From assembly GCF_020171745.1 (NCBI RefSeq), contig NZ_JAIVAH010000013.1, positions 124,001 to 188,000 of the forward strand: DNA of 64,000 nt. Reading direction: 5' to 3'. Positions 1 to 27,771 of the stretch are shown here, in pieces. The notes under the pieces were generated by a model that was not told where the DNA came from, made no database searches, and saw only the letters and a program-made list of their open reading frames with translations. The stretch comes from Prescottella equi. GTDB lineage: Bacteria; Actinomycetota; Actinomycetes; Mycobacteriales; Mycobacteriaceae. Position 1 is the first letter of the stretch. Every line of letters starts with the position of its first letter. Position numbers and translations under genes: made by a program.

Positions 1-3000
1 GCGCACCGTCTTCCCCGAGGCCGACGGCGCTGCGAGCCAGGTGATCCTGCCCGCGGACCGGGTGACCGTCGACCTCGCTGCCGAACCGGTGCGCGAATCC
101 GACGTCGCCGACGCTGTGGCGCAGACGATCTCGCAGGGCTTCGACGTCACCGTGGCCGTCCCGTTCCGGATGCGACTGCTCGCGGTCACGCCCACCGAGC
201 ACGTGCTGGTGGTGGTCGTGCACCACATCAGCGCCGACGGCTTCTCGATGGGTCCGCTCACGCGAGACATCGTCGCCGCGTACGCCGCGCGGTCGGCCGG
301 CGCCGCCCCGGCGTGGACGCCACTCGCGGTCCAGTACGCCGATTACTCGCTGTGGCAGCGCACGGTGCTCGGCAGCGAGGACGATCCGGAGTCGGTCATC
401 GCGCGACAGGTGGAGTTCTGGCGGGACGCGCTTGCGGACCTGCCCGACCGACTCGACCTGCCCGCCGATCGTCCGCGTCCCGCGGTCGTGTCGAACAGCG
501 GTGCATCGCATCGCTTCTCGATCGGCACCGAGACGTCGGGACGCATCGACGCGATCGCTCGCGAGCACGGCGCGTCGACCTTCATGGTGGTGCACGCGGC
601 CCTGTCGGTGCTGCTCGCACGCCTGAGCGGCACCGCCGACATCGCGATCGGCACCCCGGTCGCGGGCCGCGGCGAGGCCGCCCTCGACGACCTCGTCGGC
701 ATGTTCGTCAACACCCTCGTGCTGAGGGCCGACGTCCGCGGCGACCTCCCGTTCGCGGACCTGCTCACCGGTATCCGGGCCACCGACCTCGCGGCGTTCG
801 GCAACGCCGACGTGCCGTTCGAGCGACTGGTCGAGGTGCTGAGCCCGGCCCGCTCGCAGGCCCGGCACCCGCTGTTCCAGGTGGCCCTGTCGTTCCAGAA
901 CATGGACCGCACCGAACTCGCGCTCGGCGACCTGACGGTGTCCGGTGTCGACTTCGACGCCGCCGTCGCGAAATTCGATCTGGCCGTCACGGTCGCCGAG
1001 AGCGATTCGGCGACAGGTGGACTGGACGTGGACCTCACGTACGCGACCGACCTGTTCGACGCGTCGACGATGCGCACGTTCGCGGACCGGTTCGTCCGGG
1101 TGCTCGAGGCCGTCGCCGCCGATGCCTCCGTCGTGGTCGGGGACATCGACCTCCTCGACGCGGCGGAGACGGTCGCACTGACCGCGGCGGCCGGCAATGC
1201 CGGCCCGGCCCCGGTGCTGCTGCCGCAGATCCTGTCCGCCGCCGCGACCTCGGATCCGGCCCGGACGGCACTCGTCTCGGACGACGAGACCGTCACCTAT
1301 CGCGAACTCGACGAGCGGTCGTCCCGTCTGGCGCGCACGCTGATCGCGCGCGGCGCCGGACCCGAGTCGGTGGTCGCGGTTGCGCTCACCCGGTCGATCG
1401 AGTCCGTCGTCGCCCTGTGGGCCGTCGCCAAGAGCGGCGCCGCCTTCGTCCCGGTGGACCCGAACTACCCGGCCGACCGCGTCGCGCACATGGTGTCGGA
1501 TTCGCGGGCGCTCCTGGGTATCACCCGCGCCGAGCACGTCGGCGCCCTGCCCGCCGCGCTGCCGTGGATCGTCCTCGACGACGCGGCGACGGCGGACGAG
1601 GTCGCCGCGCGATCCGCCGACGCCGTGACCGACGCGGACCGCACCGCGCCGCTGCGCGTGACGGACGCCGCCTACGTCATCTACACGTCCGGTTCGACGG
1701 GTGTGCCGAAGGGCGTGGTCGTCACGCACACCGGTCTGGCGGCTTTCGCGGCCGAGCAGGTGGAGCGCTACGGCATCGAGTCCGATTCCCGGACGCTGCA
1801 TTTCGCGTCGCCCAGCTTCGACGCGTCGGTCCTCGAGCTGCTGATGGCGTTCGGTGCGGGTGCGACGATGGTGATCGCGCCGACCTCGATCTACGGCGGC
1901 CACGAGTTGGCCGACCTGCTGCGCACACACCACGTCACGCACGCGTTCGTGACGCCGGCGGCGCTGGCCTCGGTCGACCCGGCCGGCCTGGGTGCGCTGC
2001 AGACCGTCGTCGTCGGCGGTGAGGCCTGCTCGGCCGAACTCGTCGCGCGATGGGCGCCGGGCCGGCGGATGTTCAACGCGTACGGCCCCACCGAGGCGAC
2101 CGTCGCGTCCAACATCTCCGGCGCCCTCGTCCCCGGCGAGCCCGTCACGATCGGCCGGGCCATCCGTGGCGCCGACGCCTTCGTGCTCGACGGCCGCCTG
2201 CGGCCCGTCCCCGCGGGCGTCCCCGGTGAGCTGTACCTCGCCGGAGCCGGTATGGCCCGCGGCTACCTCGGCCGCCCCGCGCTCACCGCGGAACGGTTCG
2301 TGGCCAACCCGTTCGGCGCACCCGGATCACGCCTGTACCGCACCGGCGACGTCGTGCGCACGACCGCCGACCGGGTACTCGAGTACGTCGGCCGCGCCGA
2401 CGACCAGGTGAAGCTGCGCGGCTTCCGGATCGAACTCGGCGAGATCGAATCCGTTCTCGCCGCGCACGACTCGGTCGCCCAGACCGCGGTCGTGGTGGTG
2501 CGCGACCAGCTCGTCGCGTACATCGTGGCCGCCGAAGACCGGTCGATCGACGTGGCCGCACTGAAGGAGTTCGCGGCCCGCGCCATCACGGCGTACATGG
2601 TGCCGTCGGCGTTCGTGGTCCTGGACCGCCTGCCGCTCACCGGCAGCGGCAAGCTGGACCGCAAGGCCCTGCCCGAACCCGAGTTCGAGGCGCGCGAATT
2701 CCGGGCCCCGACCACCCCGGTCGAGGAAGCCGTCGCATCCGTGTTCGCCGACGTCCTCGGCGTCGACCGGGTGGGCCGCGGCGACGACTTCTTCGCGCTC
2801 GGCGGCAACTCGCTGCTGGCCACGCAGGTGGCCGCCCGACTCGGCGTGGCACTGGACACCACGGTGCCCGTGCGGGTGCTGTTCGACGCCTCGACCGTCG
2901 AAGCCCTCGCCGCCCGGGTGTCGGTGTCCACCGCCGGCCGGACGAAGGCGCTGGTCGCCGGTCCGCGTCCGGACCGGATTCCGCTGTCGCTCGCGCAGCA

Positions 3001-6000
3001 GCGCATGTGGTTCCTGAACCGGTTCGAACCTGAATCGGCGGTGAACAACATCCCGCTCGCGATCCGACTGTCGGGTGAGCTCGACGTCGAATCCCTCTCC
3101 GCGGCAATCGGTGACGTCCTGGACCGGCACGAATCGCTGCGCACCCTGTTCCCCGACGTGGACGGTGTCGGCTTCCAGTCGATCCGCCCGGCGTCCGACG
3201 TCGCGGCCCCCGTCGCCGCCGAGGCGGTCGCGGAGGCCGACCTGCCGGTGCTCGTCGAGCAGATGGTCGTGGCCGGCTTCGACCTCACGACCGACATCCC
3301 GGTGCGGATTCGTCTGTTCGCGGTCTCGCCCACCGAGCACGTGCTGGTGCTCGTGGTGCACCACATCGCGGCCGACGGCTTCTCGATGGGCCCGCTGACC
3401 CGCGACGTGATGACCGCGTACTCGGCCCGCTCGGCCGGCACCCTCCCGTCGTGGGCGCCGCTGGCGGTGCAGTACGCCGACTACACGCTGTGGCAGCGTG
3501 ACGTCCTCGGTTCGGAGGACGATCCGGAATCGGCGATGTCGACGCAGCTCGCGCACTGGAAGCGGACCCTCGCCGGCCTGCCCGGTCAGCTCGACCTGCC
3601 GTCCGACCGCCCCCGCCCCGCGGTGGCGTCCAATCACGGTGCCTCGCACAGCTTCACGATCGACGCTGATCTGCACGCGGCCGTCGACGGCACGGCGCGG
3701 GCGCACGGCGCGACGCCGTTCATGGTGCTGCACGCGGCGCTGTCGGTGCTGCTGGCCCGGCTGAGTGGCACCTCCGACATCGCGGTCGGCACCCCGGTCG
3801 CCGGCCGCGGTGAGGCGGCGCTCGACGACCTGGTCGGCATGTTCGTCGGCACCCTCGTGCTGCGATCCGATGTCCGGCCGGACCTGACGTTCGCGCAACT
3901 CCTCGCGGACGTGCGGGCTGCGGATCTCGCGGCCTTCGAGCATGCGGACGTGCCGTTCGAGCGGCTCGTCGAGATCCTCGACGTCGAGCGCTCGCAGTCC
4001 CGGCATCCGCTGTTCCAGGTGATGCTGACGCTGCAGAATCTCGCTCCGGCGTCGCTCGAGCTGCCGGGCCTGTCGGTGTCCGGCGTGGACGTCGACTCTG
4101 TGGCCGCGAAGTTCGATCTGCAGGTGACACTCTCGGAGTCGGCCGACGGATTGTCCGTCGACCTGACGTACGCGACGGACCTGTTCGACGAGTCCACGAT
4201 GCGCGTGTTCGGGGAGCGGTTCCGGCGGGTGCTGGCGGCGGTCACCTCGGACCCGGCCGTCGTGGTCGGCGACGTGGAGCTGCTCGACGAGACCGAGCGC
4301 GTGCAGGTGCTCGAGCGGTGGAATGCGACCGCCCGTCCCGTCGACGACTCCACACTGGTCGATCTGTTCGACGCGCAGGTTGCGGCGACGCCGGATGCGA
4401 CGGCCGTCGCGTCCGGCGTCGAGACCCTGACCTATCGCGAGTTCGCCTCGCGGGTGCGGCGTCTGGCCCGCCAGCTGATCGACGCCGGTGTCAAACCGGA
4501 GTCCCTGGTGGCGGTCGCGATGGGCCGGTCGGTGGAGCAGCTCGTCGCCCTCCACGCCGTGGTCGCGGCGGGTGGCGGCTACGTTCCGCTCGACCCCGAT
4601 CAGCCGGCGGAACGCAACCACTACGTGCTCGAGGTCGCGCGCCCGGCGCTGGTGCTCACCACGACGCGGGACGGCGGAGTTGCGGCCGGGGACATCCCGG
4701 TGATCTCCGTCGACGCCGTCGATCTGTCCGGGCGTTCCGATGCACCGATCGTCGACGCCGAGCGCACCGCTCCGCTGCGTGGCGCCGCGGTGGCCTACGT
4801 GCTGTTCACATCGGGCTCGACGGGCCGGCCCAAGGGTGTCGCCGTCCCGCACGCGGCGGTGACGAATCTGTTCGCGTGGATGCAGACCGAGTACGGCCTG
4901 GGCGCGGACGATCGGGTGCTGCTCAAGACCCCGTTCACGTTCGACGCGTCGGTGTGGGAGCTGTTCTGGCCGTTGCAGACCGGGGCGACGACAGTCGTCG
5001 CGTCGCGGGACGCGCACCGCGATCCCGCGGGTCTGGCACGCGAGATCGCGGACGGGTCGATCACGGTCGCACAGTTCGTGCCGTCGGTGCTCGACGCGAC
5101 GATCGATCACCTCGACCCGGCGGGCGCGGCGTCCCTCTCCCGGGTCTTCTGCGGTGGCGAGGCACTTTCGTCCCGGACGGTGTCGCGACTGCGGTCCGTC
5201 ACGGATGCGTCGGTGCACAACGTGTACGGCCCGACCGAGGTCACGGTGCAGGCGACCCGGCACGAGGTGGGTGCGTCGGATGTGGTCGTGATTCCGATCG
5301 GCGCGCCCGCATCGAACACCCGTGCCTACGTCCTGGATTCGCGTCTGCGTCCGGTTCCGGCCGGTGTCGCGGGTGAGCTGTATCTGGCCGGCGCTCAGGT
5401 GGCCCGCGGCTACCAGGGTCGGGGCGACCTGACCGCGGAGCGATTCGTGGCGAATCCGTTCACCGGCAGCGGTGAACGGATGTACCGCACGGGCGATCTG
5501 GTGAAGTGGACGGTCGGGGCGAGCGAAGCGACGGGGGATTTCCCTGAGGGCGAGCTGGAGTACCTGGGCCGCACGGACTTCCAGGTGAAGCTGCGCGGTC
5601 TGCGCATCGAGCTGGGCGAGATCGAGGCGGCCCTGCTGGCGGCGCCGGAGATCGCGCAGGCCGCGGTGCTGGTCCAGAGTGATCAGCTGGTCGCGTACGT
5701 GGTGGCCGACGGGCCCTTCGATGCCGAGGCCACGAAGGCTGCTCTGGCCAGGAGTCTGGCGTCGTACATGGTGCCGTCGACGTTCGTGGTGCTGGACGAG
5801 TTCCCGCTCAACGCGTCCGGCAAGCTGGATCGGAAGGCGCTGCCGGAGCCGGTGTTCGAGGTGCGCGAGTTCCGGGCGCCGACGACGCCGGTCGAGGAGA
5901 TCGTCGCGGGCGTGTTCGCCGACGTCCTCGGGGCCGCGCGGGTCGGTCTGGACGACGACTTCTTCGCGCTGGGCGGCAATTCGCTGGTCGCGACGCAGGT

Positions 6001-8386
6001 CGTCGCGCGTCTCGGCGCGGCGCTCGACGCCCAGGTGCCGGTACGGGTGCTGTTCGAGGCGTCGACGGTGAGCGCGCTCGCGGCCCGGGCTCAGGCCCTG
6101 GCGGGTGCCGGGGCGCGCAAGGCGCTCGTCGCCGGTCCGCGACCGGAGCGGATTCCGCTCTCGCTGGCCCAGCAGCGCATGTGTTTCCTGAACCGGCTCG
6201 AACCGGAGTCCACCACGTACAACATTCCGCTGGCGATGCAGCTCACCGGAGACTTGGACGTCGCGGCGCTGCGGGCGGCCCTGCAGGACGTCCTCGTCCG
6301 GCACGAGGCGCTGCGCACGTACTACCCGGAGGACGCGGACGGCCCGCACCAGGTGATCGTGCCGGCCGATCGGGTCGAGTTCGATCTCACGCCCGTCCCC
6401 GTCACCGCGGACGACGTGCTCACTCGCGTGGGTGGCCTGCTCGGCCTCGGCTTCGACGTGACCAGCGGAGTTCCGCTGCGGGCCGGGCTGTTCCGGATCG
6501 ACGACCAAACACACGTGTTCGCGTTCGTCGTCCACCACATCGGTGCGGACGGCGTCTCCATGGCGCCGATGGCGCGTGATCTGGTCGCCGCGTATGCCGC
6601 TCGCAGCCAGGGCGCGGCGCCGCAGTGGTCCCCGCTCGCGGTGCAGTACGCGGACTTCGCGCTGTGGCAGCGCGAGGTGGTGGGCTCGGCGGACGAGCCC
6701 GGCACGGTGGCCGCGGAGCAGCTCGAGTACTGGGTGCGGACGTTGTCGGGCGCACCGGATCTGCTCGATCTCCCCACCGACCGGCCACGTCCGGCGGTGG
6801 CGTCGATGAGGGGAGCCGAGACCGGTTTCACGATCCCGGCTGCACTGCACACCGCACTCGACGCACTCGGGCGGGCCGAGGGCGCATCGCTGTTCATGGT
6901 GGCGCACAGTGCGCTGGCCGTGCTGCTGGCGCGGCTCAGCGGAACCTGGGACGTCACGGTCGGCACCCCGATCGCCGGACGCGGGGACGCCGCACTCGAC
7001 GATCTGGTGGGCATGTTCGTCAACACGCTGGCGCTGCGGACGGAACTGACGTCGTCGATGACGTTCACGGATGTCCTCGCGCGGTCGCGGGAGACTGATC
7101 TGGCCGCCTTCGGCAACGCGGACCTGCCGTTCGAGCGCGTCGTCGAGGCCGTCGCGCCGTCTCGCTCGACGGCGCGGCACCCGCTGTTCCAGACGGTGCT
7201 GTCGTTCCAGAACCAGCAGCAGGCCGCACTCGAGCTGCCCGGCCTGACGGTGGGTGCGGTACCGGATCAGGAGCGGGCGGCCAAGTTCGACCTGCAGCTG
7301 ACCCTGATCCCGGCACCGTCCGGAGATCTCGAGGCTCTGCTGACCTACGCGACGGACCTGTTCGACGAGTCGACGGTGGCGACGCTCGGCCGGCGATTCG
7401 TACGGATCCTCGAGGCCGTCGCTGCGGACGCCCGGGTGGTGGTCGGTGACATCGACATCGTGTCCGACGCGGAGCGAGCACAGTTGCAGGGCGCCGCGAC
7501 GTCCGGAGGATCCGCCGACGCCGGGCCGGGCGCGACCGTCGTGCCCAGCGACAGCACCGTGCCGCAGATCCTGGCAGCGGTGGTCGAGGCCGACCCGGAG
7601 GCGCCGGCGATCTCGGACGACGGTGAGGAGATCACCTACGGCGATCTCGACGAGCAGTCGTCGCGACTGGCGCGGCTGCTGATCGGCGAGGGCGTCGGCC
7701 CCGGTCACCACGTGCCGATCGCGCTGCCCCGCTCGGCGGATGCGGTGGTTGCGGCGTGGGCGGTGCTCAAGAGCGGCGCCGCTCTGGTGCCGATCGAGGC
7801 AGCGGAGGGCGACCGGTTGCCGTCCGACATGACGGCCAAGGTCGGCGTAACGACGTCCGCACTCGTCGAGGACCTGCCCGACAGCATCGAATGGGTCGTG
7901 CTGGATCGCGACGCGGACCGGATCCGCATCGACGAGCAGTCCGGCAGGCCGGTCACCTACACCGAGCGGATCCGCCGCCTGGGCTCCGAGGATCCCGCAC
8001 TCGCGGCGGCCGACGGATCTATCTCGCTCACCCACGGATACGTGGTGGCACTCGCCGAGCGCGATCGCGCCCGCTACGACGTCACCTACGAGTCCCGGAC
8101 CGTGTGTACCGAGCCCCTGAGCAGCATCTGGTCGGTCACCGAGCTGCTCGTGGCGTCCACCGCGGGCGCGGTGACCGTCGTCACGGCAGTACCGGAGGGT
8201 AACGTCACCGACCTTCTCGCCGACGAATGGGTGACCCATGCATTCGTGTCGGCGGCCTGCGCGCAGGCCCTCGACGTCGCGGAACTCGAGGATCTCGAGG
8301 TTCTGGTGCTCACCGACGGCGCCCGGCCGGAGGGACGGCCGGACGTCCGGCGGGTCGTCGCCGATGCGGAGGTGTGGTCCGTGTGA
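1..8386 (+). CDS. Nonribosomal peptide synthetase, 5' partial: (C)-A-T-C-A-T-C-A*
   Basis: The reading frame is open through the left edge (codons in phase from base 2) and begins inside a condensation domain. C domains carry intact HHxxxDG motifs at bases 221, 3359 and 6533 (HHISADG, HHIAADG, HHIGADG). Two complete adenylation domains lie at about 1220-2690 and 4330-5860, with YTSGSTG and FTSGSTG loops. Carrier domains have the GGNS phosphopantetheine serine at 2810 and 5981. The third C domain is followed at about 7558 by a shortened A-like segment that runs to the stop and lacks the TSGSTG loop, the FDxS motif and everything after core A4. The second A domain reads approximately D-A-W-Q-F-G-V-V-Q at the Stachelhaus positions, which resembles glutamine codes (tentative). 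The product is unknown. It probably hands its peptide to the synthetase encoded next. Confidence 0.95.
5507..5537 (+). repeat. 31-base motif inserted in a loop of the first synthetase's second A domain (copy 1)
   Basis: The core GGCGAGCGAAGCGACGGGGG lies where other A domains go directly from the W of xxRW to the EYxGR motif. It adds about ten residues ([10 protein letters not shown]...) between cores A7 and A8. The copy at 16061-16091 matches at 28 of 31 bases by eye, and the sequence beyond the motif differs. Confidence 0.6.
7558..8383 (+). other. Degenerate, truncated adenylation-like domain (A*) at the end of the first NRPS
   Basis: After the last C domain the protein resumes normal A-domain sequence (LPQIL-type start, [29 protein letters not shown]). 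Along about 275 residues it still aligns to the N-terminal half of the A domain that opens the next protein. For example, [16 protein letters not shown] matches [16 protein letters not shown]. The ATP-binding loop is replaced by unrelated sequence (ISLTHGYVV region). The FDAS substrate-binding motif has become PLSSIWS, and the chain stops before the YGPTE motif. Frame and length are preserved throughout, so this is not a simple frameshift remnant. Catalysis is not possible. A structural or docking role is inference. Confidence 0.8.
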
Positions 8387-8438
8387 GGCGATAATGATGG
8401 TTTGTCCCGGGCGATGTAGGTGTAAGGAAAGAGTCACT

Positions 8439-8507
8439 GTGGTGCGTTGTGAGATGCCAAGCCGTCGCGTGTCGGCGATCGACACACGAGGTGTTCGGAA
8501 CGCATGA
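8439..8507 (+). CDS. Possible 22-residue leader peptide, translationally coupled to the second NRPS
   Basis: In the 117-base gap between the two NRPS genes, a GTG (8439; a second GTG at 8442) sits eight bases after AAGGAAA (8424-8430). It opens a 22-codon frame whose TGA overlaps the ATG of the next gene (ATGA at 8504-8507). The frame could also begin at ATG 8394 or 8397, adding CPGRCRC just after the first stop codon. No family is recognisable. The good ribosome-binding site and stop/start overlap suggest coupling, but a frame this short could be chance. Confidence 0.3.
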
Positions 8508-11500
8508 GCGAGCAGAGTCGGGAGCTGCACGGGAGTGACGGAGACGAACGCAAGCGCACCAGGCGCCCGCGGCCGGAGCGGCGCGAACGCCCTACGCGGC
8601 GGAGCCGTCCCCGGTCGACGACGCTGCCGCAGCTGCTGGCTGCGGCCGTCGAGCGGGACCCGTCGGCCACCGCGCTCGTGTGCGCCGACCGCTCCCGCAC
8701 CTACGCGGACCTCGACGCGTGGTCCTCGCGCCTCGCCCGGGTCCTGATCGAACGGGGCATCGGGCCGGGCGACTCCGTTGCCGTGGCCGTCCCGCGGTCC
8801 ATCGAATCGGTGTCGGCGGTGTGGGGTGTCGCGAAGTCGGGTGCCGCCTACGTGCCCGTCGACCCGAACTATCCGGCCGACCGCGTCGAGCACATGGTCA
8901 CCGACTCGGGTGTCCTCGTCGGACTGACGACCGCCGAGTCGCGCGACGCGCTCGCGGACTCCGTCGAATGGCTGGTGCTCGACGACGACTTCGAACGCGC
9001 GCTGGCCGATCGGTCCCCGGAACCGATCTCCTTCGCGGACCGCACCCGGACGTTGGCGGACACCGATCCGGCCTACGTGATCTACACGTCGGGTTCGACG
9101 GGGCGGCCCAAGGGCGTCGTGGTCACCCAGGCCGGCCTCGGCGACTTCTGTGCCGAACAGGTCCGGCGGTACGGGCTCACCCCGCAGGCCCGGACGCTGC
9201 ACTTCGCCTCGCCCAGCTTCGACGCCTCGGTGCTCGAGCTGCTGCTCGCGGTGGGCGCCGGTTCGACGATGGTGATCGCGCCGCCCACGGTGTACGGCGG
9301 CGACGACCTCGCCGAACTGATTGCGACGCACCGCGTCACGCACGGATTCGTGACGCCGGCTGCGCTGGCGTCGGTCGACCCGGCCGGGCTGGACACCTTC
9401 CTCGACGTCGTCGTCGGCGGCGAGGCCTGCCCGCCCGACCTGGTGGCGCGCTGGGCCACGTCCGGCCGCAGGTTCTTCAACGGCTACGGCCCCACCGAGA
9501 CCACGATCATGACCGCGATCTCCGATCCGTTGGTCCCCGGTGAACAGATCACGATCGGTGGTCCCACCCAGGGCATGTCGCTCGTGGTGCTCGACGACCG
9601 GTTGCGCCCCACCCCGGTCGGTGTCGCGGGCGAGCTCTACGTGTCGGGCCCGGGTGTCGCGCGCGGCTATCACGGCCGATTCGCGCTCACCGCCGAACGA
9701 TTCGTGGCAAGCCCGTTCGGCGATCCCGGAAACCGGATGTACCGCACCGGAGACGTGGTGCGCTGGAACGCGAACCAGCAGATCGAGTACGTCGGACGCT
9801 CCGACTTCCAGGTCAAGATCCGCGGATTCCGCATCGAGCTGGGCGAGATCGACGCCGCGCTCGGCGAGCACGACGACGTCGACTTCGCCGCCACGGTGGC
9901 CCACGAGGCGACGACGGGCAGCAAGGTCCTCGTCTCCTATGTGCGCCCGGTGGCCGGCCGGCAGATCGACGTGCCCGCACTGCTCGAGTTCGTCGGCCGA
10001 TCGCTGCCCCGGCACATGGTGCCCTCCACGGCCATGGTCCTCGACACGATTCCCCTCACCCCGGTCGGCAAGCTGGACCGTCAGGCGCTGCCGGCTCCGG
10101 TCTTCGAGGCCCGCGAGTTCCGGGCGCCGGTCACCCCGACGGAGGAACTAGTGGCGTCGGTGTTCGCCGACGTGCTCGACGTCCCGCAGGTGGGTCTCGA
10201 CGACGACTTCTTCGAGCTCGGCGGCAACTCGCTGATCGCAACGCAGGTGGTGTCCCGGCTGTCGGCCGCGGTCGCCGCGCAGATCCCGGTGCGTGCGGTG
10301 TTCGAAGCATCCACGGTGGAGGCGCTGGCGGCCCAGGTCGACGCCGCGTCGGGCGGCGACGCTCGCACGGCGCTGACGGCCGGCCCTCGCCCCGAAAGGA
10401 TTCCGCTGGCGCTGGCGCAGCAGCGGATGTGGTTCCTGAACCGCTTCGAACCCGACTCCACCGTCGACAACATTCCGGTCGCGATCCGGCTCTCCGGCAC
10501 GCTCGACGTCGCGGCGCTGCGGGCCGCGGTGAGCGACGTCGTCGACCGCCACGAGTCGCTGCGCACGGTGTTCCCGGACATCGACGGCGTCGGCCACCAG
10601 GTAATTCGCGAGTCGAGTGAGATCGGCGAACTTCTTCCGGTGGAGGATGTTTCGGTCGACGCGATCCTGGACCGGGTCGGCGCCCTGGTCGGTGCGGGTT
10701 TCGAGCTGTCCCGCGACATCCCGGTTCGGGCACGGTTGTTCGCGGTGTCGCCGACCGAGCACGTGCTCGTGTTCGTGGTGCATCACATTGCGGCCGACGG
10801 CTTCTCGATCGGACCGCTGACCCGCGATGTCATGCTCGCGTACGCGGCCCGGTCCGCGGGGACACTGCCCGGCTGGGCTCCGCTCGACGTGCAGTACCCC
10901 GATTACGCGCTGTGGCAGCGTGACGTTCTCGGCTCGGAGGACGACCCGCAGTCGGTGCTGGCGCAGCAGGTCGCCCACTGGACGGCCACGCTGGCCGGGC
11001 TTCCGGACCAGCTGGATCTGCCCGCAGACCGGCCGCGTCCCGCCGTCGCGTCCAACCACGGCGCCACCCACCGGTTCGAACTCGGTGCGGAGCTGTCGAC
11101 GGCGATCGACGAACTGGCCCGTCAGCGCGGCGCCACCCCGTTCATGGTGGTCCATGCGGCGCTGTCGGTGCTGCTCGCGCGGCTCAGCGGAACGTCGGAC
11201 ATCGCGGTCGGCACCCCGGTCGCCGGTCGCGGCGAGCAGGTGCTCGACGACATGATCGGCATGTTCGTCAACACCCTGGTGCTGCGCAGCGATGTGCAGC
11301 CCGCGGCGACCTTCGACGAACTTCTGGTGCAGGTGCGCACCTCCGACCTCGCAGCCTTCGGGCACGCCGACATCCCGTTCGAGCGGCTGGTGGAGATCCT
11401 CGACCCGGCCCGGTCGCAGGCGCGGCATCCGCTGTTCCAGGTGATGCTCAGCTTCCAGAACCTCGGCAGCGCCGACCTCGTACTCGGCGACCTGACGGTG

Positions 11501-14500
11501 TCCGAGGTCGAATTCGATGCGGCCACAGCCAAGTTCGATCTGCAGGTGACGATCCTCGAGTCCGCCGACGCCGGCTACTCGGTGGCACTGACGTATGCCA
11601 CCGATCTGTTCGACGCGTCGACGATGGTGACCTTCGGGAGCCGGTTCGATCAGGTGCTGGGTGCAGTCGTCGACGCCCCGTCGTCGACCGTGGGCGATAT
11701 CGAACTGCTCGAGCCCGCGGAGCGCTCGCTGGTGGTGGGGGAGTGGAACGCCACCGATCACCCGGTTCCGGATGCGACGTTGGTGGATCTGTTCGAGGCG
11801 CAGGTGGCGCGGACGCCGGACGCTGTTGCGGTGGTGTTCGAGGGCGAGTCGTTGACATACGGCGAGTTCGCGGCGCGGGTTCATCGGACGGCGAGGTTCC
11901 TGATCGCGGAGGGTGTCGGTCCGGACTCGTTGGTGGGTCTGGGGATGCGGCGATCACTGGATCTGTTGGTGGGCATGTATGCGGTGCTGACCGCGGGTGC
12001 CGGGTATGTGCCGGTGGATCCGGATCAGCCGGCGGAGCGTAACGGGTACATCCTGGACACGGCTGTTCCGGCGTTGGTGTTGTCGACGTCGCGAGACGGT
12101 TTCGAGGTCGCGGGGGAGAGGTCTGTCTCCGTCGTGCTTCTCGACGAGACGGATGTGTCCGGGTTCTCGGATGCTTCGCTGTCGGATGCGGATCGGGTTG
12201 CCCCGCTGCGTGGTTCGAACACCGCGTATGTGATTTTCACGTCGGGTTCGACGGGTCGTCCGAAGGGTGTGGCGGTCGAGCATGCGGCGATTGTGAATCG
12301 TCTGGTGTGGATGCAGGCCGAGTACGGCCTGGGTTCGGCGGACACGGTTCTGCAGAAGACGCCGTTCACGTTCGATGTGTCGGTGTGGGAGTTCTTCTGG
12401 CCGTTGCAGGTGGGTGCGCGGTTGGTGATCGCCGCCCCGGATGGTCATCGGGATCCGGCGTATTTGGCGCGGGTGATGGTCGAGCGCGGCGTCACCGTGG
12501 CGCATTTCGTGCCGTCGATGCTGGCGGTGTTCGTGGCGGAGCCTGCTGTTGCCGAGGTGGATTCGCTTCGTCTGGTGTTCGCGTCGGGCGAGGCGTTGCC
12601 GGCACAGACGGCTGCGCGGCTGCGTGACGTGGTGCCGGGTGCGGCGCTGCACAACCTGTACGGCCCGACCGAGGCTGCGGTGGATGTGACGTTCCACGAG
12701 GTCACCGCGGATGATGTGGCGTCGGTGTCGATCGGTGCGCCGGTGTGGAACACGCAGCTGTTCGTGCTCGATGGGCGTCTCAACCCGGTACCGGTGGGTG
12801 TTCCGGGTGAGTTGTATCTGGCTGGCGTCCAGCTGGCGCGCGGCTATGTGGGCCGCAGTGATCTGACGGCGGATCGTTTCGTGGCGAACCCGTTCTCCGA
12901 TGGCGGGGAGCGGATGTATCGCACGGGCGACCTGGTGACGTGGACGGCGGGCGGCGAGCTCGACTACATCGGTCGCACGGACTTCCAGGTGAAGTTGCGT
13001 GGTCTGCGGATCGAGCTGGGCGAGATCGAGACCGCGCTGTTGGCGCAGGAGTCGATCGCGCAGTCGGTTGTCCTGGTGAAGTCGGATCAGCTGGTCGCGT
13101 ACGTGGTGCCGGCGGCCGGCGCGACGGTCGACGAGGCCGCGGTGAAGGCAGACGTGGCCAAGAGCCTGGCGTCGTACATGGTTCCGCAGACCTTCGTCGT
13201 GCTGGATGCGTTCCCGTTGAATGCGTCGGGCAAGTTGGATCGGAAGGCGTTGCCGGAGCCGGTGTTCGAGGTCCGTGAGTTCCGGGCGCCGACGACACCG
13301 ATGCAGGAGATCGTCGCGGGTGTGTTCGCCAATGTGCTCGGTGTGGATCGGGTTGGTCTGGACGACGACTTCTTTGCCCTGGGTGGCAACTCGCTGGTGG
13401 CGACGCAGGTCGTGGCCCGGTTGGGCGTCGCGTTCGACACGACGGTTCCGGTGCGGGTGCTGTTCGAGGCGTCGACCGTCGACGCGCTGGCGTCGGCGTT
13501 GCAGTCGCTCGCGGGTGCGGGTGCCCGTAAGGCGCTGGCGGCCGGGGCGCGTCCGGACCGGGTGCCGTTGTCCCTTGCGCAGCAGCGCATGTGGTTCCTC
13601 AACCGTTTCGAGCCGGACTCGGCGGTGAACAACATTCCCCTCGCGATCCGGCTCAGCGGCGCGCTGGACACCGAGGCCCTGCGTGCGGCGGTGCAGGACG
13701 TCCTCGCGCGGCACGAGTCGCTGCGGACGGTGTTCCCCGACACGAACGGTGTGGGCCACCAGTTGATCCGGTCCACCGATGCGGTGGACTTCGGACTCGA
13801 GATCGAACCGGTCACCGACGATGCGCTCGTCGGGCGGATCGAGGAATGGGCGCTCGCAGGCTTCGACCTGACTGTCGAACTCCCCGTACGGGCCCGGGTG
13901 TTCGCGCTGTCGCCGACCGATCACGTTCTGGTCCTGGTGCTGCATCACATCGCGGCCGACGGTTTCTCGATGGGCCCGCTGACCCGCGACGTGATGCTCG
14001 CCTATGCGGCCCGCTCGGCCGGCGAGGTTCCGGGCTGGGCGCCGCTGGACGTCCAATACGCCGACTACGCGCTGTGGCAGCGTGAGGTCCTCGGCAGCGA
14101 GGACGAGCCCGAGTCGCTGATCGCGCAGCAGGTCTCGTACTGGACCGGGCAGCTCGCCGACCTGCCCGAGCAGCTGGATCTGCCGTCGGACCGGCTCCGG
14201 CCGGCCGTGGCCTCCAACAGTGGTGCCACGCACAGGTTCTCGATCGGTGCCGAGCTACAGGACGGCATCGACAACGTCGCTCGAGTGCACGGTGCGACGC
14301 CGTTCATGGTGGTCCATGCGGCGCTGGCGGTGCTGCTCGCACGGCTGAGCGGCACCTCCGACATCGCGATCGGCACCCCGGTCGCGGGCCGCGGCGAGGC
14401 CGCCCTCGACGACGTCGTCGGCATGTTCGTCAACACCCTGGTCCTGCGGACCGAGGTCGACGGCGGACGGTCCTTCGCCGACCTCCTCGCTCAGGTCCGG

Positions 14501-17500
14501 TCCACCGACCTGGCCGCGTTCGAGCACGCGGACCTGCCGTTCGAGCGTCTGGTCGAGATCCTCGACCCGGCGCGCTCGCAGGCCCGGCACCCGCTGTTCC
14601 AGGTGGCGTTGGCCTTCCAGAGCGGGATCGCCCAGCAGTCCCTCGAACTGCCCGGGCTCACGGTGTCGGGAGTCGACTTCGACATCGCACTCGCGAAGTT
14701 CGATCTGCAGGTGACGGTCGCCGAGCGTCTGGTCGAGATGACCTATGCCACCGATCTGTTCGACGAGGCCACGATCCGGGATCTCGGCGACAGGTTCGTC
14801 CGGGTCCTCGAATCGGTGGTGGCGGACGATTCCGCGGCCGTCGGCGACGCCGTCCTGCTCTCCGCGTCCGAACTCGGCACCCTCACCGGTGTCGAGGGGC
14901 CCGGGGTCACCCGCGTCGAGACGCTCACCGCGATCCTCGGACGCCACGTGACGACGAATCCGGCCGCGCCCGCTCTGAGTTGCGGCGCTACGACGCTCAC
15001 CTACCGCGACCTCGACGAGCGGTCGAGTGTGCTTGCCCGTGAACTGATCGCACGCGGGCTCGGCCCGGAGAGCGTTGTCGCGCTGTCGTTCCCGCGTTCC
15101 TGGGAGATGGTGCTGTGCGTGTGGGCGGTCGCGAAGACCGGCGCAGCGTTCGTCCCGGTGGACCCGACGTACCCCGGCGATCGCATCGAGCACATGGTGA
15201 CCGATTCCGCTGCCGTGCTGGGCATCGCGGCCGCCGACGCGATCGACAGCCTGCCGGGCGCCGTCTCGTGGTGGTCGTTGGGTGATCTCGAACGCGCGGC
15301 AGCCGACGCGGGACACCCGGTGACGCCCGTCGGCGACGCCGACCGGACACGTACGCTGCTGCTGGACCACGCCGCCTACGTGATCTACACGTCCGGATCG
15401 ACGGGCAAGCCGAAGGGCGTCGTCGTGACCCACCGCGGACTGTCCGGACTGGTGGACCAGTCGGTCGAGCTGTACGACGTGGACGCGACCGACCGCGTGC
15501 TGCACATCTGCTCGCCGAGCTTCGACCCGTCGGTGTTCGAATGGGCGCTGGCCGCCGCGGCCGGCGCGGAGCTCGTGGTGGTGCCTCCGTCGATCATCGG
15601 CGGCGAGGAATTGCACGCGCTGCTGGCGCAGCGCCGCGTGACCGTCTCGATCATCACCCCGGCCGTGCTGGGATCGATGGATCCCACCGGTCTCGACGAC
15701 CTGCGACTGCTGTCGGTCGGCGGCGATGCGTCGACCACGGAACTGGTGGGACGCTGGGCGCCCGACCGGCAGTTCTTCAACGCCTACGGCCCCACCGAGA
15801 CCACGATCGTGTCGACCCGCGGTGAACTGTTCGCGGGCAAGCCGATCACCGTCGGCGCGCCGGTCGCCGGCGTCGGGGCGCTGATCCTCGACACCCGGCT
15901 GCGGCCCGTTCCGGTGGGCGTCGCGGGTGAGCTGTATCTGTCGGGCGGCGCGCTTGCACGGGGCTACCACGGCCGCGCCGGACTCACTTCGGACCGGTTC
16001 GTCGCGAACCCGTTCGGGGCACCCGGGCAGCGGATGTACCGCACCGGGGATGTCGTGCGGTGGACGGTCTCGGCGAGCGGAGCGACGGGGGGTGTGACCG
16101 ACCTGTCGATCGAGTACGTCGGACGCTCCGACTTCCAGGTCAAGGTGCGGGGCTTCCGCATCGAACTCGGCGAGATCGATTCGGCGCTCACCGATTGCCG
16201 TGGAGTGTCGTTCGCGACCACGATCGGTCACCGGATGCCGTCCGGCCAGACAGCACTCGTCTCGTACGTCCTTGCCGACGACGGCGTGGACGCGGCCACC
16301 ATGATGCGACACGTCGAATCGCTGTTGCCGTCGTACATGGTTCCGGCGTCCATCGTGGTCCTCGACGAGATTCCACTGACGGCGGTCGGCAAGCTGGATC
16401 GTCAGGCCCTGCCCGAGCCGGTCTTCGAGAATCGAGTGTTCCGCGCGCCGGTCACCGCGACGGAACTGCTCGTCGCCGAGGTGTTCGCCGAGGTGCTCGG
16501 TGTCGATCAGGTGGGACTCGACGACGACTTCTTCGACCTCGGTGGAAACTCGCTCGTCGCCACACAGGTGGTGGCCAGGCTCGGTGCCGCCCTCGGCGCC
16601 CGCGTCCCGGTGCGCGACCTGTTCGACAGTTCCACCGTGGAAAGTCTTGCCGCGCAACTTCATACGGAGGTCGATGGCGGCCGCGCCACGCTCGTGGCGA
16701 CGCCGCGGGACGAACGGGTCCCGCTGTCACTCGCGCAGCGGCGCATGTGGTTCCTCAACCGGCTCGAACCCGAGTCGGCCGTCAACAACATCCCGATCGC
16801 GGTGCGCCTGTCGGGGCGGCTCGACGTGGAGGCGCTTCGTCTGGCCGTCGGGGACGTCGTCGGGCGACACGAGTCGCTGCGCACTCGGTATCCGGAAGTC
16901 GACGGAGTCGGCTACCAGTCGGTGCTCCCCGTCGACGCTGCGCTGTCCGGGTGGGATTTCGGTCCCGAGCGGGTGAACGCCGAGGAACTGAGTGCGCGAC
17001 TGTCGGCGCTCGCCTTCACACGATTCGACGTCACGACCGAGGTCCCGCTGCGGATTCGTCTGTTCCAGGTGGTCGAAGCGGACGCGCAGGTCGAGGGCGG
17101 ATCCGAGTACGTCCTCGCCCTGGTGGTGCACCACATCTCGTCCGACGGTGTCTCGGTGGGGCCACTGATCCGGGACGTCATGACCGCATATGTCGCCCGC
17201 TGCGCCGGCGCGGCTCCCGGTTGGGCGCCGTTGGACGTTCAGTATGCGGACTATGCCGTGTGGCAACGGGAAACTCTGGGATCCGAAGACGATACCGAAT
17301 CCCTTGTCTCGCAGCAGATCGCGTTCTGGCGCGACCAGCTGGCCGGTGTGCCCGACCAGCTGGATCTGCCGACCGATCGTCCGCGCCCGGCGGAGCAGTC
17401 GTATGCCGGCTCGACGGTCGGCGCCGGGGTGGACGCGCAGACACACCGCCGGCTCGTCGAACTGGCCCGGGAGCACGGCGCCACGTCGTTCATGGTGATG

Positions 17501-20500
17501 CATGCGGCCCTCGCGGTTCTCCTTGCCCGCCTCTCCCGCTCGGGAGACATCGTCGTCGGCACGCCCATCGCGGGGCGCGGTGAGGCCGCGCTCGACGACC
17601 TGGTCGGAATGTTCGTCAACACCCTCGCACTGCGGGTCGGGGTGGATCTCGCGGAACCGTTCGCGGACCTGCTGGACCGTGTCCGGGGCGCGGACCTGGA
17701 CGCCTTCGCCAACGACGACGTGCCGTTCGAGCGTCTCGTGGAGGTTCTCAACCCGGTGCGGTCGAGGGCCAGGCACCCGCTGTTCCAGGTCGGATTCTCG
17801 TTCCAGAACATGAAGACCGGAGCACTCGAGCTTCCGGACCTCGAGGTCGCCCCGATCGACACCCCGTTCGAGATCGCCAAGTTCGACCTCCACGTGACGG
17901 TCGTCGACGACGTCGACACCGACGGCAACCCGGCCGACTTCACCGTGAACTTCACCTATGCCACGGACCTGTTCACCGAAGACACCGTTCGGCGGTTCGC
18001 CCGGATGTACACGCGGATCCTGCGTGCCGTCGTGGTGAATCCGGCCCTCCCGGTCGGTGATCTCGACATGATCGACTCCGGTGAGCGCGAGCGTGTGCTC
18101 ACCGAATGGAACGACACCGCGCACACGATCGAGCGGACGGGGACGCTCGTCGACCTGTTCGATGCGCAGGTGGCGATTGCACCCGATGCGCCCGCGCTGG
18201 TCGCGGACGGTGGGAACCTGACCTATCGGGAGCTCGACGATCGTGTCAACCGTCTCGCACGCCGGCTGATCGAGCTCGGCGTGGGGCCGGAGTCGCTCGT
18301 CGCGCTGGCGATGCGCCGATCCGTGGAACTGATCGTCGGCATGTACGCCGTCGCGAAGGCCGGTGGCGCGTACGTGCCGATCGATCCGGACCACCCCGCC
18401 GACCGCACCGACTACATCCTCGAGGCGGCGCAGCCGACCTGCGTGCTGTCCACCGAGCGGGACGGTTTCTCGGTCGCCGCCGCTGTTCCGGTGCTGCACG
18501 TCGACACCTTCGACGGCGCGCGGTTCGCAGCCGGTCCGATCGCGGATCGCGAGCGCACGGCACCCCTGCGGGAAGCGAACACCGCGTACGTGATCTTCAC
18601 GTCGGGTTCGACGGGCCGGCCGAAGGGCGTGGCGGTCAGCCACACGGCCGTCGTCAACCAGCTCGAGTGGAAGCGCGCCGAGTACGGACTCGATGCCTCG
18701 GACGCGGCGCTCCTGAAGACGGCCGCCACGTTCGACCTGTCCGTCTGGGAGTTCTGGTCCGCGCTGACCTCGGGCGGACGCCTCGTCGTCGCATCGGCGG
18801 ACGGCCATCGGGATCCGGCCTACCTCAACACGCTGATGCGTCGTGAGGGCGTGACGACCCTGCACGCCGTCCCGTCGATGCTGCAGGCGCTGCTCGTCGA
18901 GTCCGGGGACAGGCTTCCCGGCTCGCTGCGCCGCATCCTCACGATCGGCGAGGTGCTCCCGGTGGACACCGCGGCGCGGATCGTCTCCGGGACAGCAGAA
19001 CTCGTCAACCTCTACGGGCCCACGGAGGCGGCGGTGTCGGTGACGGCGCAGCGCGTCGCCGGTGTCGACGGTGCCGCGGTACCGATCGGCGGCCCCGAGT
19101 GGAACACCCGGCTCCTCGTCCTCGACGACCGGTTGCGTCCGGTGCCGGTCGGCGTGCCCGGGGAGTTGTATCTCGCCGGCTCGCAGCTGGCCCGCGGCTA
19201 CTTCGGACGTCCGGCGCTCACCGCGGACCGGTTCGTGGCCGACCCGTTCGGGCGCGCGGGGGAGCGGATGTACCGCACCGGCGACATCGCGTCCTGGCGG
19301 CCCGACGGCACCCTCGACTACGTCGGGCGCGCCGACTTCCAGGTCAAGGTGCGCGGCTTCCGCATCGAGCTAGGGGAGATCGAAGCCGCGTTGCGAGCGC
19401 TCGACACGGTCGCGGAAGCTGTGGTCACGGTGTGGAGCGACGAGAGGGTGGGCGATCGACTCGTGGCCTACGTCGTGCCGGACGCTGTCTCGGAGTTCGA
19501 CGCGACCGGCATCGAACTCGCTCTCTCCCAGTCGATTCCGTCCTACATGGTGCCGTCGGCCTTCGTCGAGCTCGATGCCTTGCCGCTCAACGTGAACGGG
19601 AAGGTGGACCGCAGGGCACTACCCGATCCGGTGATCGGCGTCCGGGATTTCCGGGAACCCACCACTGCGATCGAACAGGTCGTCGCCGAGGTTTTCGGTG
19701 ACCTGCTGGGCATCGAGCGAGTGGGCCTGGACGACGACTTCTTCGAACTGGGCGGAAACTCGCTGATCGCGACACAGGCCGTGGCACGGATCGGCGCAGC
19801 GGTCGACCTCGATGTTCCGGTGCGGTTGGTGTTCGGGGACTCGACCGTCGCGGCACTCGCCGCGGGCGTGGAGAAGCTCGGCGGGGGTGGACGCCGCATG
19901 GCGCTGGTCGCCCGTGAGCGTCCGGAACGAATCCCGCTGTCCCTTGCGCAACAACGGATGTGGTTCCTCAACCGGTACGACCCGGAGTCTTCGGCGTACC
20001 ACATCCCCATGCTCCTCAGGCTCACCGGCGCGCTCGACGTCGAGGCGTTGCAGGCCGCAATCGAGGACGTCGTGGACCGGCACGAGGTCCTGCGCACCGT
20101 GTACCCGGAGATCGACGGCACCTGCTACCAGCTGGTCCTGGACGGCGGAGCCCCGGACCTGACACCGGTGGACGTCCCCGAGCACGAACTGCTCGGCCGA
20201 CTCGCCGACCTGGTGCACGCGTCGTTCGATGTGACGGCCCAGGTTCCGCTACGGGGAAGCCTGCTCCGGGTCGGCCCGGACGACTTCGTCCTCGCGGTCG
20301 TCGTGCACCACATCGCGGCCGACGGGTTCTCGACGCGACCGCTCGCACGCGACGTCATGTTCGCGTACGCGGCCCGGACTGCAGGCCGCGCTCCCGCGTG
20401 GCAGCCGCTGCAGGTCCAGTTCTCCGATTTTGCGATGTGGCAGAGGGAACTCCTCGGCTCGGAGGACGACCCGGACAGCCTGGTGTCCAAGCAGATCGAA

Positions 20501-23500
20501 TACTGGCGAGATGCGCTCGACGGACTGCCCGACGTGCTCGACCTTCCGGTGGATCGCCCTCGCCCGGCGGTGTCGTCGGGTCGAGGCGGCGCCCACACCG
20601 TTCGGATCGATGCCGATCTGCATACGGGAATCGAGGCGTTGGCGCGGGCGCACCGGGCAACCCCGTTCATGGTCGTGCATGCAGCCCTGGCCGTGTTGAT
20701 GTCCCGGTACAGCGGCAACTCCGACATCGCCGTGGGAACCCCGACGGCCGGTCGCGGCGAGGCAGTTCTCGACGATCTGATCGGTATGTTCGTCGGAACC
20801 TTGGTGCTGCGCACACGGATCGACGACGAGTGGGCGTTCGCCGAGATGATCGCGCACGCTCGGGAAACCGACCTCGCCGCGTTCGACAACGCCGATCTGC
20901 CGTTCGAACGCCTCGTCGAGGTGGTCGATCCCGTTCGTTCACAGTCGTACTCGCCGCTCTTCCAGGTGAGTCTGGCGTTCCAGAACCTCGGACGCACCGA
21001 GTTCTCGCTCGGAGACCTGCACATCTCCACTGTCGATGCGTCGTCCGCCACAACGCAGTTCGATCTCGACTTCGCGTGTGCCGACAATCGGGACAGCAAT
21101 GGCCGTCCGGCCGGAATCGACGTCCACCTGACCTATTCGACGGACATCTTCGACGACGCCACTGCACATCGGCTCGTCGACGGGTTGGTGCGGATCCTGC
21201 ACCAGGTGGTTGCCGCGCCCGACACCCGGATCGGTCTGCTCGACGTCGCGGATCCCACGGAGCACCGCGAGCTGGTCGGAGGATCGAATTCCACTGCGCG
21301 CGTCGTGGTGCCGGAGACGCTGGCCGATCTCGTCGACTCCAGTGTCCGGGTGCGGCCGGACGCCGCGGCGGTGTCGTTCGAGCGCGTCACGCTCACCTAC
21401 CGGGAGTTCGACGCCCGCGTCAATCGGCTGGCTCGTCACCTGATCGCGCACGGCGTCGGTCCCGAGGCCCTCGTCGGGCTTGCCCTCGACCGGTCGCTCG
21501 ACATGCTCGTGGCGATGTACGCGATCGTGAAGGCCGGCGGAGCGTACGTGCCGATCGATCCGGAGCATCCGGGTGAGCGAATCCGGTACGTCCTCGACGT
21601 CGCGGCGCCGGAGCTGGTGCTGACGACGTCGGCCCGGGCGCGGGTGCTCCCGGAGGGGGTGCGCCGGTTCGAGGTGGACGCGCTGGATCTGTCGGCGTAC
21701 GACGACACCCCCGTCACGGATTCCGAACGACTGCTTCCCCTACGACCCTCCAACACCGCGTACGTGATCTTCACGTCGGGTTCGACGGGACGCCCGAAGG
21801 GCGTGTCCGTCAGCCACGGGGCGATCGTCAATCAGTTGCGCTGGCTGGCAGACGAATACGACATCACTGCCGACGACCGCATCATGCAGCGCGCACCGTT
21901 CACCTTCGACGTGTCGGTGTGGGAGTGTTTCCTGCCGCTGGCCGTCGGTGCCCTGCTCGTGATTACCCGTGCCGGCGGTCATCGGGAGCTCGACTATCTG
22001 GCATCGGTGATGCGCGACAACCGGATCACGGTCGCCGAGTTCGTGCCTTCGGTGCTCGCGACGCTCCTTGCGGAGGGGGAGGGCGACGCCCTGAGTACTC
22101 TCCGGCATCTGTTCGCCGGAGGTGAGGAGCTGACGGCGGAGCTCGCCGAGGAACTGGGCGAATTCTGCGTCGGTACGCTGCACAACACGTACGGCCCGAC
22201 CGAAGCCGCGATCACGACGACGTTCCACGAACTCGCCGGTCCTTCCGCGGCACATGTTCCGATCGGGCGGCCGGTGTGGAACACCCGCGCGTACGTGCTC
22301 GACGACCGGCTTCGTCAGGTCCCCGTCGGCGTCGCCGGGGAGCTCTATCTCGCGGGCGACCAGCTGGCGCGCGGCTACCACGGCCGAGTGGATCTGTCCG
22401 CCGACCGGTTCGTCGCGAGCCCTCACGACGTCGGCGGACGGATGTATCGCACCGGAGACCTCGTGCGGTGGGACAACAACGGAGAACTGGTGTATCTCGG
22501 CCGCACCGATTTCCAGGTGAAGATTCGCGGCCTGCGAATCGAGCTGGGGGAGATCGAGGCGGTGATCCTCGCTCAGGAGTCCATCGCGCAGGCGGCGGTC
22601 GAGGTCAGAAGCGACCGGCTGGTGGCCTACGTGGTGCCGGTTCGAGGCGAGGCGATCGACACGACGGCGTTGCGTGCCGCGACCGCCGACAACCTCGCGT
22701 CCTACATGGTGCCGACGGCCTTCGTCGTCCTGGACGAGTTCCCGCTGTCGGGTTCGGGCAAGCTCGACCGCAGGGCACTGCCCGAACCTGCCTTCGAGGC
22801 CCGCGAGTTCCGCGCCCCGGACACCGCGACCGAGATCGCGGTGGCCTCGGCCTTCGCCGCTGTGCTCGACGTCGATCGCGTGGGATTGGATGACGACTTC
22901 TTCTCGCTGGGTGGCAATTCGCTCGTCGCGGTGAAGGTGGTTTCAGCGCTGCGGGACGAGCACCGCATCGACGTCGCCCTGCAGTGGCTCTTCGTTGCGC
23001 CGACCGTCGAGGGCCTGGCCGCACGCATCGATCTCGAGAACGTGGGCAGCCCGGGGGACACCGCCTTCGGAGTCGTGGTTCCGCTGCGTGTCGCCGAGAA
23101 CGACGGTCCCGCCGGAGATGCGCCGGCTCCGCTGTGGTGCATCCACCCCGTCACGGGCCTCGCGTGGGGTTTCGCGGGGCTGGCCGGACACCTGGATCCG
23201 AACCGCCCGATCTACGGGCTGCAGTCGCCCGCCCTGAGCGGCGACAGCGACCTGCCTGCCACCATCGAGGACTGGGCGACCCGGTACATCGCCGAGATCC
23301 GACGGATTCAGCCGAGCGGCCCCTACCACCTCATCGGCTGGTCGATGGGTGGTTCGATCGCGCACGCCATGGCTCTGCAACTGTCCGCGGCCGGCGACGA
23401 GGTGGGCACCCTGGCGATGCTCGACAGCCACATCGCGGCCGACGATGCAGAGCAGAGCGCGGGGGAGGAAGCCTCATTGGCGGATCTGCTGGGCGGACTC

Positions 23501-23875
23501 GGTGCCGGCCTCGACGAGAATCCGTTGCTCGGCGAGCTCACCGTCGACGGTGCTGTCGAAGCACTGCAGGGCCTGGCCACACCGTTCGGTCAGTTCGACC
23601 GTGATCGAATCGCGGCACTGGTGTCCGGTGTCGTGCACGCGTCCGCCGTGACCGACGAGTACCGCCCGACGGAACGCTTCGTGGGTGACCTGCTCTACTT
23701 CAGCGCCGATCTGGACGGCACACGCGGCGTCGAGGCCTGGCGTGGTGTCGTCGCCGGTGACGTCGAACTCGTACCCGTTGCGGCAACGCACTGGGACATG
23801 ACGTCGGCCGAGGCACTTGGGACGATTGCGCCCGTTCTGTCCCGACACCTCGAGCGTCGAGACCGGGTGAGCTGA
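8504..23875 (+). CDS. Nonribosomal peptide synthetase, five modules with terminal thioesterase (A-T-C-A-T-C-A-T-C-A-T-C-A-T-TE)
   Basis: The protein has 5,123 residues. It opens with an unusual Arg-rich tail (12 Arg in residues 16-37) and then an A domain (about 40-530) without a preceding C domain. Carrier serines lie at residues 576, 1630, 2683, 3753 and 4806. C domains have HHxxxDG at about 760, 1814, 2876 and 3935. A domains carry (Y/F)TSGSTG(R/K)PKG loops near 190, 1243, 2292, 3363 and 4421. The second A domain reads D-V-W-H-F-S-L-V-D from Asp1291, the EntF-type serine code. The last carrier ([11 protein letters not shown], residues 4800-4870) differs from the others and feeds an alpha/beta-hydrolase thioesterase with GWSMGG (Ser4947) and a late His in ATHWDM, which should release the peptide. 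No epimerisation or methylation domain is visible. The first A domain probably pairs with the C domain ending the upstream protein; a loading role is the alternative. Confidence 0.96.
16061..16091 (+). repeat. 31-base motif inserted in the third A domain of the second synthetase (copy 2)
   Basis: This is the same motif as at 5507-5537 with three mismatches. It encodes [10 protein letters not shown] and lengthens the same A7-A8 loop. The two host A domains belong to different sequence groups (FTSGSTG versus YTSGSTG type), so simple module duplication does not obviously explain the shared insertion. Confidence 0.6.
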
Positions 23876-25940: not shown

Positions 25941-26796
25941 TTGCGCCTCATACTTGCCCACACGGCCAGCGGTGCGAAGACCACGACCAGACCCACACAC
26001 CACGCGACCGCCGGAAACAGCGTCGACGCGGTGACCCCGCCGGCTGCCATGTCTCGCATTGCATACGAGAACTGGGAGATCGGCTGATTACGCACGAACG
26101 GCCGGATCCACTCGGGGAATCCGGTCTCCGGGACGAAACCGCACGACAGCATGCCGAGGATCAGCTGCGGCAGTGCCAGTGCCTGTGACGTGGCCTCGGG
26201 GGATTTCGCCAGCGTGCCGATCGCGTCTGCGCCCAGTGACAAGGCGACACTGATCGCCAGCGCAAGGGCGCAGAACAGTGCGGCCTGCGTCACGCCCGCG
26301 TTGAACCGGAAGCCGATGGCATAGCCGTACACCAACGCCGCAGCGAGGGTGATCACCGACCGCACCAGGGCGCGGGTCATGCGTGACAGGAGCGGCACCG
26401 GGCCCGAGACCGGCATCGTCTTGAGTCTGGTCGTGAGACCGTGCAGGGCCTCGACGGAGGCAACCTGAGACGCCGAGATCGCCGTGAAGGCCATCGCCTG
26501 CAGCACGATGATCGGCATGAGGAACTGCGCGTAGTCGATGCCCTGGAGCTTCATCACGAACCGCAGCGGTAGGTAGAAGCCGACGGTGAAGATCAGCGGC
26601 GCGACGACGGCGACCGCGAGCTCACCGGTCTTCACCATCGTCTTGAGGCTCCGGCCCGTGAGCGCGAGCCACTGGTGGAACCCGTTCGGGTCCGGCCGCC
26701 GGTGCGATCCGGCGCGCTTGGCGGGCACGGCGACCGAGGCGCGCTTGGACGCCGCGGACATCGCCAGTCCCTTCGCGGCGCTGTTCGTGCTGGAGG

Positions 26797-26800: not shown

Positions 26801-27771
<971 letters not shown>

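Follow-up and report, generated by a model that had tools for sequence, protein, structure and literature searches.

A pseudo-adenylation half-domain as a putative docking domain at NRPS modules cut between C and A in Prescottella equi and related bacteria

Why would an NRPS assembly line keep half of an adenylation (A) domain that appears to be catalytically dead? The question is posed by a Prescottella equi locus in which one module is divided between two proteins. The window, by which we mean the whole 64,000-nucleotide stretch of DNA analysed, covers positions 124001-188000 of a 517-kb contig (C13) and holds part of a line of three adjacent synthetases, NRPS1, NRPS2 and NRPS3, with frames of 6925, 3593 and 5140 aa. 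Its 5' end falls inside NRPS2, whose 3593-aa frame (C13 121605-132386) reaches into the window as positions 2-8386, and NRPS3 follows at 8504-23875. The first-pass annotation had read a split module here, with C-A* closing one protein and A-T without a C domain opening the next, and both the frames and Pfam bear this out. In window 6026-8383, Pfam finds Condensation (313.8 bits for the protein) and then an AMP-binding match that is only partial; in window 8504-10900 AMP-binding is complete (3-384 of 384) and is joined by AMP-binding_C and PP-binding, and nothing ahead of the first A domain of NRPS3 matches Condensation. The NRPS2 C-terminal order is therefore C-A*, and NRPS3 starts with a complete A-T. 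The parts of the junction, all on the + strand, are as follows.

6149..7486, +, last C domain of NRPS2, motif HHIGADG (PF00668 at residues 42-487 of window 6026-8383; motif read)
7487..7555, +, C-to-A* linker, predicted to be partly disordered (model residues 451-464 have pLDDT <50)
7556..8383, +, A*, C-terminal pseudo-adenylation half-domain of 276 aa, predicted to be folded (Pfam, alignment, AlphaFold)
8216..8242, +, LADEWVTHA, a signature particular to A* and covering its residues 221-229 (W225 occurs in 97% of 30 A* rows and in 0% of 74 complete A rows)
8384..8503, +, NRPS2 stop codon (8384-8386) and intergenic gap (sequence)
8504..8623, +, basic N-terminal tail of NRPS3, rich in Arg and Pro, 40 aa (sequence, charge count)
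8642..10072, +, partner A domain of NRPS3, complete, AMP-binding plus AMP-binding_C (Pfam)
10148..10336, +, T domain (PP-binding) belonging to the split module (Pfam)

Over NRPS1 to NRPS3, C domains and complete A domains are equal in number, 14 of each. This makes A* surplus, and the line needs no A* to be colinear, provided, as we infer, that the first A domain of NRPS3 serves the last C domain of NRPS2. After the line, window 25065-32606 encodes an ABC exporter pair (ABC2_membrane, DrrA-like) and then the S10, L3 and L2 ribosomal proteins.

The half-domain and the protein that follows it

A* was thought to be about 275 residues long and to align over its whole length with the first half of the next A domain. 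It measures 276 residues, and the match to an N-terminal half stands, with the alignment itself running over A* residues 5-260 at 42% identity to the NRPS3 domain. Searched alone, A* matches only the N-terminal part of AMP-binding (PF00501, Pfam; E 2.6e-22). TIGR01733 matches 30 of 30 A* members, the first of them far under its cut-off, and neither Pfam nor NCBIfam has a dedicated model for A* or for the short element described below. As had been noticed at first pass, A* has no TSGSTG/K loop, no FDxS and ends before YGPTE, all three of which are found in the A domain of NRPS3: the P-loop is deleted, FDxS is replaced, and the protein stops ahead of YGPTE and so is without the C-terminal subdomain. 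Nor are these losses peculiar to one strain, as the P-loop and GPTE (by pattern) and FDxS (by eye) are kept in 0 of 59 A* rows, duplicates included. Judged by its sequence, A* retains the homology and predicted fold of the N-terminal core and is without the features of functional adenylation (the A3 P-loop, A4 FDxS, A5 YGPTE and the C-terminal subdomain).

A* also has residues of its own. Among the positions fixed in it and rare in 74 complete A domains are P17, R131, Y135, E179, D223, W225 and E245, with frequencies in A* versus complete A domains of 0.97 versus 0.00 for W225, 0.83 versus 0.08 for D223, 0.93 versus 0.09 for E179 and 0.83 versus 0.04 for R131. The A-domain consensus LRRERVTH reads LADEWVTH in A*, at a place where many active A domains have arginines. 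Mean net charge is -24.7 for A* (n=71 loci, some genomes being counted twice) versus -11.8 for partner A N-terminal halves (n=69) and -11.2 for internal ones (n=40), which makes A* about twice as acidic as normal A N-terminal halves.

The partner protein begins with a basic tail that the first-pass annotation missed. Its net charge is +4 to +12 over the 32 aa before the A domain at 34 of 34 junctions, and +2 to +11 in 69 tails when the window of counting is shifted. N-termini at the C|A junctions of the short, or mini, type have a mean of +1.0 (range -4 to +5, 24 cases), and the tail charges of the two kinds of junction overlap at the low end. Two styles of tail recur: rhodococcal lines have RERPxRRxR, and Nocardia has TRPARVRPTRTRRPR. 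What follows the junction differs as well: in one Prescottella genome (G002) it is two modules and a TE, and in the window it is five modules, which indicates that the junction moves as a unit and is portable.

Structure prediction for C-A* (AlphaFold2, 40 rows; mean pLDDT 85.9, pTM 0.57) gives an A* that is ordered save at its end, joined to C by a disordered linker. Compared with solved C-A pairs, the two domains in the model are shifted (rmsd about 21 Å over some 700 residues), and we rejected an ordinary C-A platform as a description of C-A*, the orientation being both not confident at this pTM and unlike the solved pairs. A readthrough fusion of A*, gap, tail and A reached a pTM of 0.78 despite 87 disordered inter-domain residues, which hints at a preferred A*:A arrangement in the model, with the caveats that this is a pTM from 11 rows without an error matrix and that the homology of A* and A may mislead the predictor. 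This fusion leaves the Arg tail without order, at a block pLDDT of about 25-55, and tail binding was not seen in it. Fold comparison aligned the fusion mostly through its complete A domain, and an A-A pair is neither shown nor excluded by it.

Distribution, selection and origin

If A* were debris, one might expect relatives with a full A-T at this end of the protein, or frames that are broken and under relaxed selection. Within the genus we saw no full A-T in this position. Among the Prescottella genomes, A* is C-terminal with an intact frame in the genome studied and in 11 of 13 others (65-87% identity); the remaining two (G005, G006), without A*, seem to be without the whole line, since their best matches to it reach only 57-63%. 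In a named collection 80 loci matched, and 29 of them show a junction with an A-first protein, 26 with A*; two of the remaining three are preceded by a TE-ended gene and one by a longer pseudo-A. The genera with an A* junction in this collection are Prescottella, Rhodococcus, Rhodococcoides, Nocardia, Aldersonia and Antrihabitans. An A* profile search of 301 family genomes finds 132 at E<=1e-60, a level that complete A domains also reach; at E<=1e-75 the count is 67 genomes from 7 genera, of which only part was individually classified.

For 71 census places we assigned A* with two competing profiles (A* versus the complete A N-terminal half); these are a non-random sample of 30 top loci, 20 chosen lower ones, 18 more and 3 from giant genes. 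A* stands right after C at the protein end in 71 of 71. An A-first ORF with a basic tail begins within 0.6 kb downstream in 62 of them and about 3.2 kb away in one, the fetched stretch has no A-first NRPS in seven (Nocardia giants), and one lies at a contig end. All classified A* frames run to a normal stop. Apparent internal stops in three A* matches (G154/G294, G187, G250) were rejected, the match having overrun the normal stop of A*. In P. defluvii CP121458 (L043, L097) the NRPS genes lie in many short frames, probably through sequencing errors, and A* is intact.

The rule is not universal. At two Hoyosella loci (L056, L028) a longer C-terminal pseudo-A of 385 aa follows C and includes part of the second half, and the next NRPS is A-first with no Arg tail; we kept L056 outside the A* set, and regard these loci as an intermediate or an independent case. 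At two further loci (L085, L117; also L202, L201) an Arg-tail A-first synthetase comes after a gene that ends in TE and not in A*; in that line A* lies one gene further upstream, ahead of another A-first protein.

Among ten Prescottella genomes (10 of the 12 genus loci, with L017 and L023 omitted), the median dN/dS of A* is 0.31 and 45 of 45 pairs lie below 0.41. The median values beside it are 0.209 for C, 0.115 for the partner A N-terminal half and 0.267 for the tail (42 of 45 pairs usable, limited to dS <1.5). A* is thus under purifying selection that is weaker than on its catalytic neighbour domains. The earlier view of an intact, retained frame holds across many lines and several genera.

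Phylogeny places A* in one clade. With loop columns removed, 25 of 25 rows fall on one side of a branch supported at 100/100, and in a larger quick tree A* keeps together in 28 of 28 (SH-aLRT 99); of 34 locus pairs, the quick tree omits six and the careful tree nine, these being near-copies and, in the careful tree, also the long row L079. In the quick tree the partner A domains, mixed with four internal ones, adjoin A* (support 88). Since A* and the partner A domains lie near each other, A* may have begun as a partly duplicated copy of the A domain that belongs to the split module. We offer this as a suggestion only, because partner and internal A domains are only partly ordered in the careful tree.

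What A* might do

We think that A* is probably a former adenylation domain that has become a docking domain, serving NRPS lines in which the cut falls between C and A. A* would stay with its own C domain and contact the incoming protein via its A domain (a pseudo-pair A*:A), via the Arg tail on an acidic face, or both. Such contact would bring the right A-T beside the last C domain and so rebuild the split module. Our confidence is slightly reduced by the nine of 71 census places at which an A-first neighbour is not seen close by. It also counts against docking that most co-occurrence of A* and partner concerns adjacent genes, which would be co-inherited anyway, and the four partner-type A domains that lie inside uncut proteins are a possible counter-case.

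It is also possible that A* never touches the next protein. C and the A N-core normally form a platform, and a terminal C domain could need an A-like body on its C-lobe for folding or solubility; that A* directly follows C in all 71 places, even where no NRPS adjoins, is what such a structural cap would lead one to expect. We consider it unlikely, as a cap leaves the regular Arg tail of the partner, the acid shift and the gained W225 unexplained, and the model does not place A* on C with confidence (pTM 0.57). A domains also bind MbtH-like proteins. A* could thus recruit one of these, a tailoring enzyme or a regulator, with the downstream NRPS docking in some other way, and there is a precedent in the inactive C-type X domains described in PMC8949500; structures with Oxy partners have been solved for such domains. 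Both MbtH matches of the genome lie on other contigs, which speaks against this proposal, and we find it improbable.

Two further explanations seem weaker still. Lost active-site motifs and a dN/dS above that of the catalytic domains are what one would predict for a decaying leftover of gene fission or duplication; a single clade across genera, intact frames, purifying selection and new invariant residues are not, and we regard decay as very improbable. We give almost no credence to the idea of an artefactual split, or of one that frameshift or readthrough bridges so that A* lies inside a single long protein: in the window NRPS2 and NRPS3 are in the same frame, but over 39 junctions the frame relation is 0, 1 or 2 in 12, 14 and 13 cases, four in-frame stops separate the genes in the window, and the tail start position is conserved among relatives. 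Putative docking, then, is the reading that we carry forward. Of the first-pass view, a conserved half-domain between C and a mostly A-first protein survives; besides the partner's tail, it had missed the recurrence in many lines and a second A-derived pair at the neighbouring split.

That second pair lies upstream of the window (C13:121317-122000; L010, L122), where NRPS1 and NRPS2 are also cut between C and A. Elements of about 90 aa at the end of NRPS1 and the start of NRPS2 are homologous to each other and also to the start of A* (60 columns, hhalign probability 95, E 2e-8). Of 121 family genomes, 51 match the NRPS2 element at E<=0.001, in part weakly, and 23 of 24 A-first proteins with the short element are preceded by a protein with the partner element. 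It also occurs within single synthetases of about 11.3 kaa (L156, L159, L146-L151), where it separates C from A and looks like a docking joint closed by fusion, and nearly alone in separate ORFs of 118-186 codons in one genus (L152-L155). Both kinds of C|A cut in this family carry ends that, by homology, are A-derived.

Pairing in trans and relation to known systems

Several Nocardia giants, with open frames of about 12-17 kaa, end in a short A* with the signature GEVTHWF or GEVSHWF and have no NRPS in the next few kb; the giants in which no NRPS adjoins A* are L203, L204, L249, L252, L258, L260, L263, L264 and L265. The type of tail and A domain to look for as their partner was defined on a locus of N. 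amamiensis (L079), where 420 bases separate the partner from A*, here a frame of only 269 aa that no C domain precedes. In five genomes (G152, G156, G157, G196, G223) an Arg-tail A-first protein with 60-65% identity to that partner is encoded elsewhere in the genome. One of them, G157, has two 2.4-kaa proteins that start with this partner type and end in different A* subtypes, with a different tail subtype after each, and both downstream pairings are repeated in G280 and G324 (the loci are L247, L248 and L249 in G157, L253 in G280 and L250-L252 in G324). This is how a docking code would be expected to look, and it would permit a line to branch, which we consider possible from the subtype pattern. 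Tentatively, and as a proposal that we consider less likely than not, A-derived pseudoenzyme domains may form a portable, subtype-specific docking code for C|A cuts of NRPS lines in this bacterial family, comprising the long A* with its Arg-tail partner and the short pair of about 90 aa at both ends, in which a Nocardia giant (about 14.7 kaa) would hand over to alternative synthetases encoded elsewhere as a natural branching line.

The X domain of glycopeptide lines recruits P450s. It is a catalytically inactive NRPS domain used for recruitment, as A* may be (PMC8949500 for the X domain); the X domain is C-derived, whereas A* is A-derived and sits C-terminally ahead of an A-first synthetase. 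Dead or missing A domains that are served by the A-T of another protein, as would be the case at the junction here, are described in the same part of that source for albicidin, cystobactamid, ramoplanin and SyrB1 [A-T] (PMC8949500), but those helpers are stand-alone [A-T] proteins, and here the A-first protein carries the rest of the line. Corallorazine Crz1/Crz2, in the portion of PMC11342130 that describes them, likewise place A-domain material on two proteins; their pieces make one active A domain with its small subdomain on Crz2, whereas here the partner A domain lacks nothing and A* comes in addition to it, as a dead half. Complementation of the corallorazine type was excluded for A* because the partner A domain is complete (PF00501 3-384 of 384 plus AMP-binding_C).

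The NRPS docking classes set out in the docking passages of PMC9113145 are COM (helix-hand), PAX and beta-hairpin, with junctions at SrfAB-SrfAC (COM), PCP to C (PAX) and PCP/C (beta-hairpin). Like A* as we read it, these are terminal elements that order NRPS subunits; they are short, whereas A* measures 276 aa, derives from an A domain, lies where a module is cut at C|A and fits none of the classes in those passages (PMC9113145). In searches of the open-licence PMC literature we recognised no description of a C-terminal pseudo-A docking domain, and a term search of two surveys of Nocardia and Rhodococcus clusters (PMC4035055, PMC5550956) returned no passage on the A* arrangement.

If A* is indeed a connector, it would add a docking class and a C|A cut site beyond those named in these passages of PMC9113145. 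Engineering of NRPSs wants clean cut points and orthogonal connectors, and connectors of the A* type would come from many lines and genera and, within one genome, in subtypes. A* as a connector would also be a case of an NRPS catalytic domain reused as a scaffold, in parallel to the X domain and, if true, would help to explain how the very long rhodococcal and nocardial lines are ordered.
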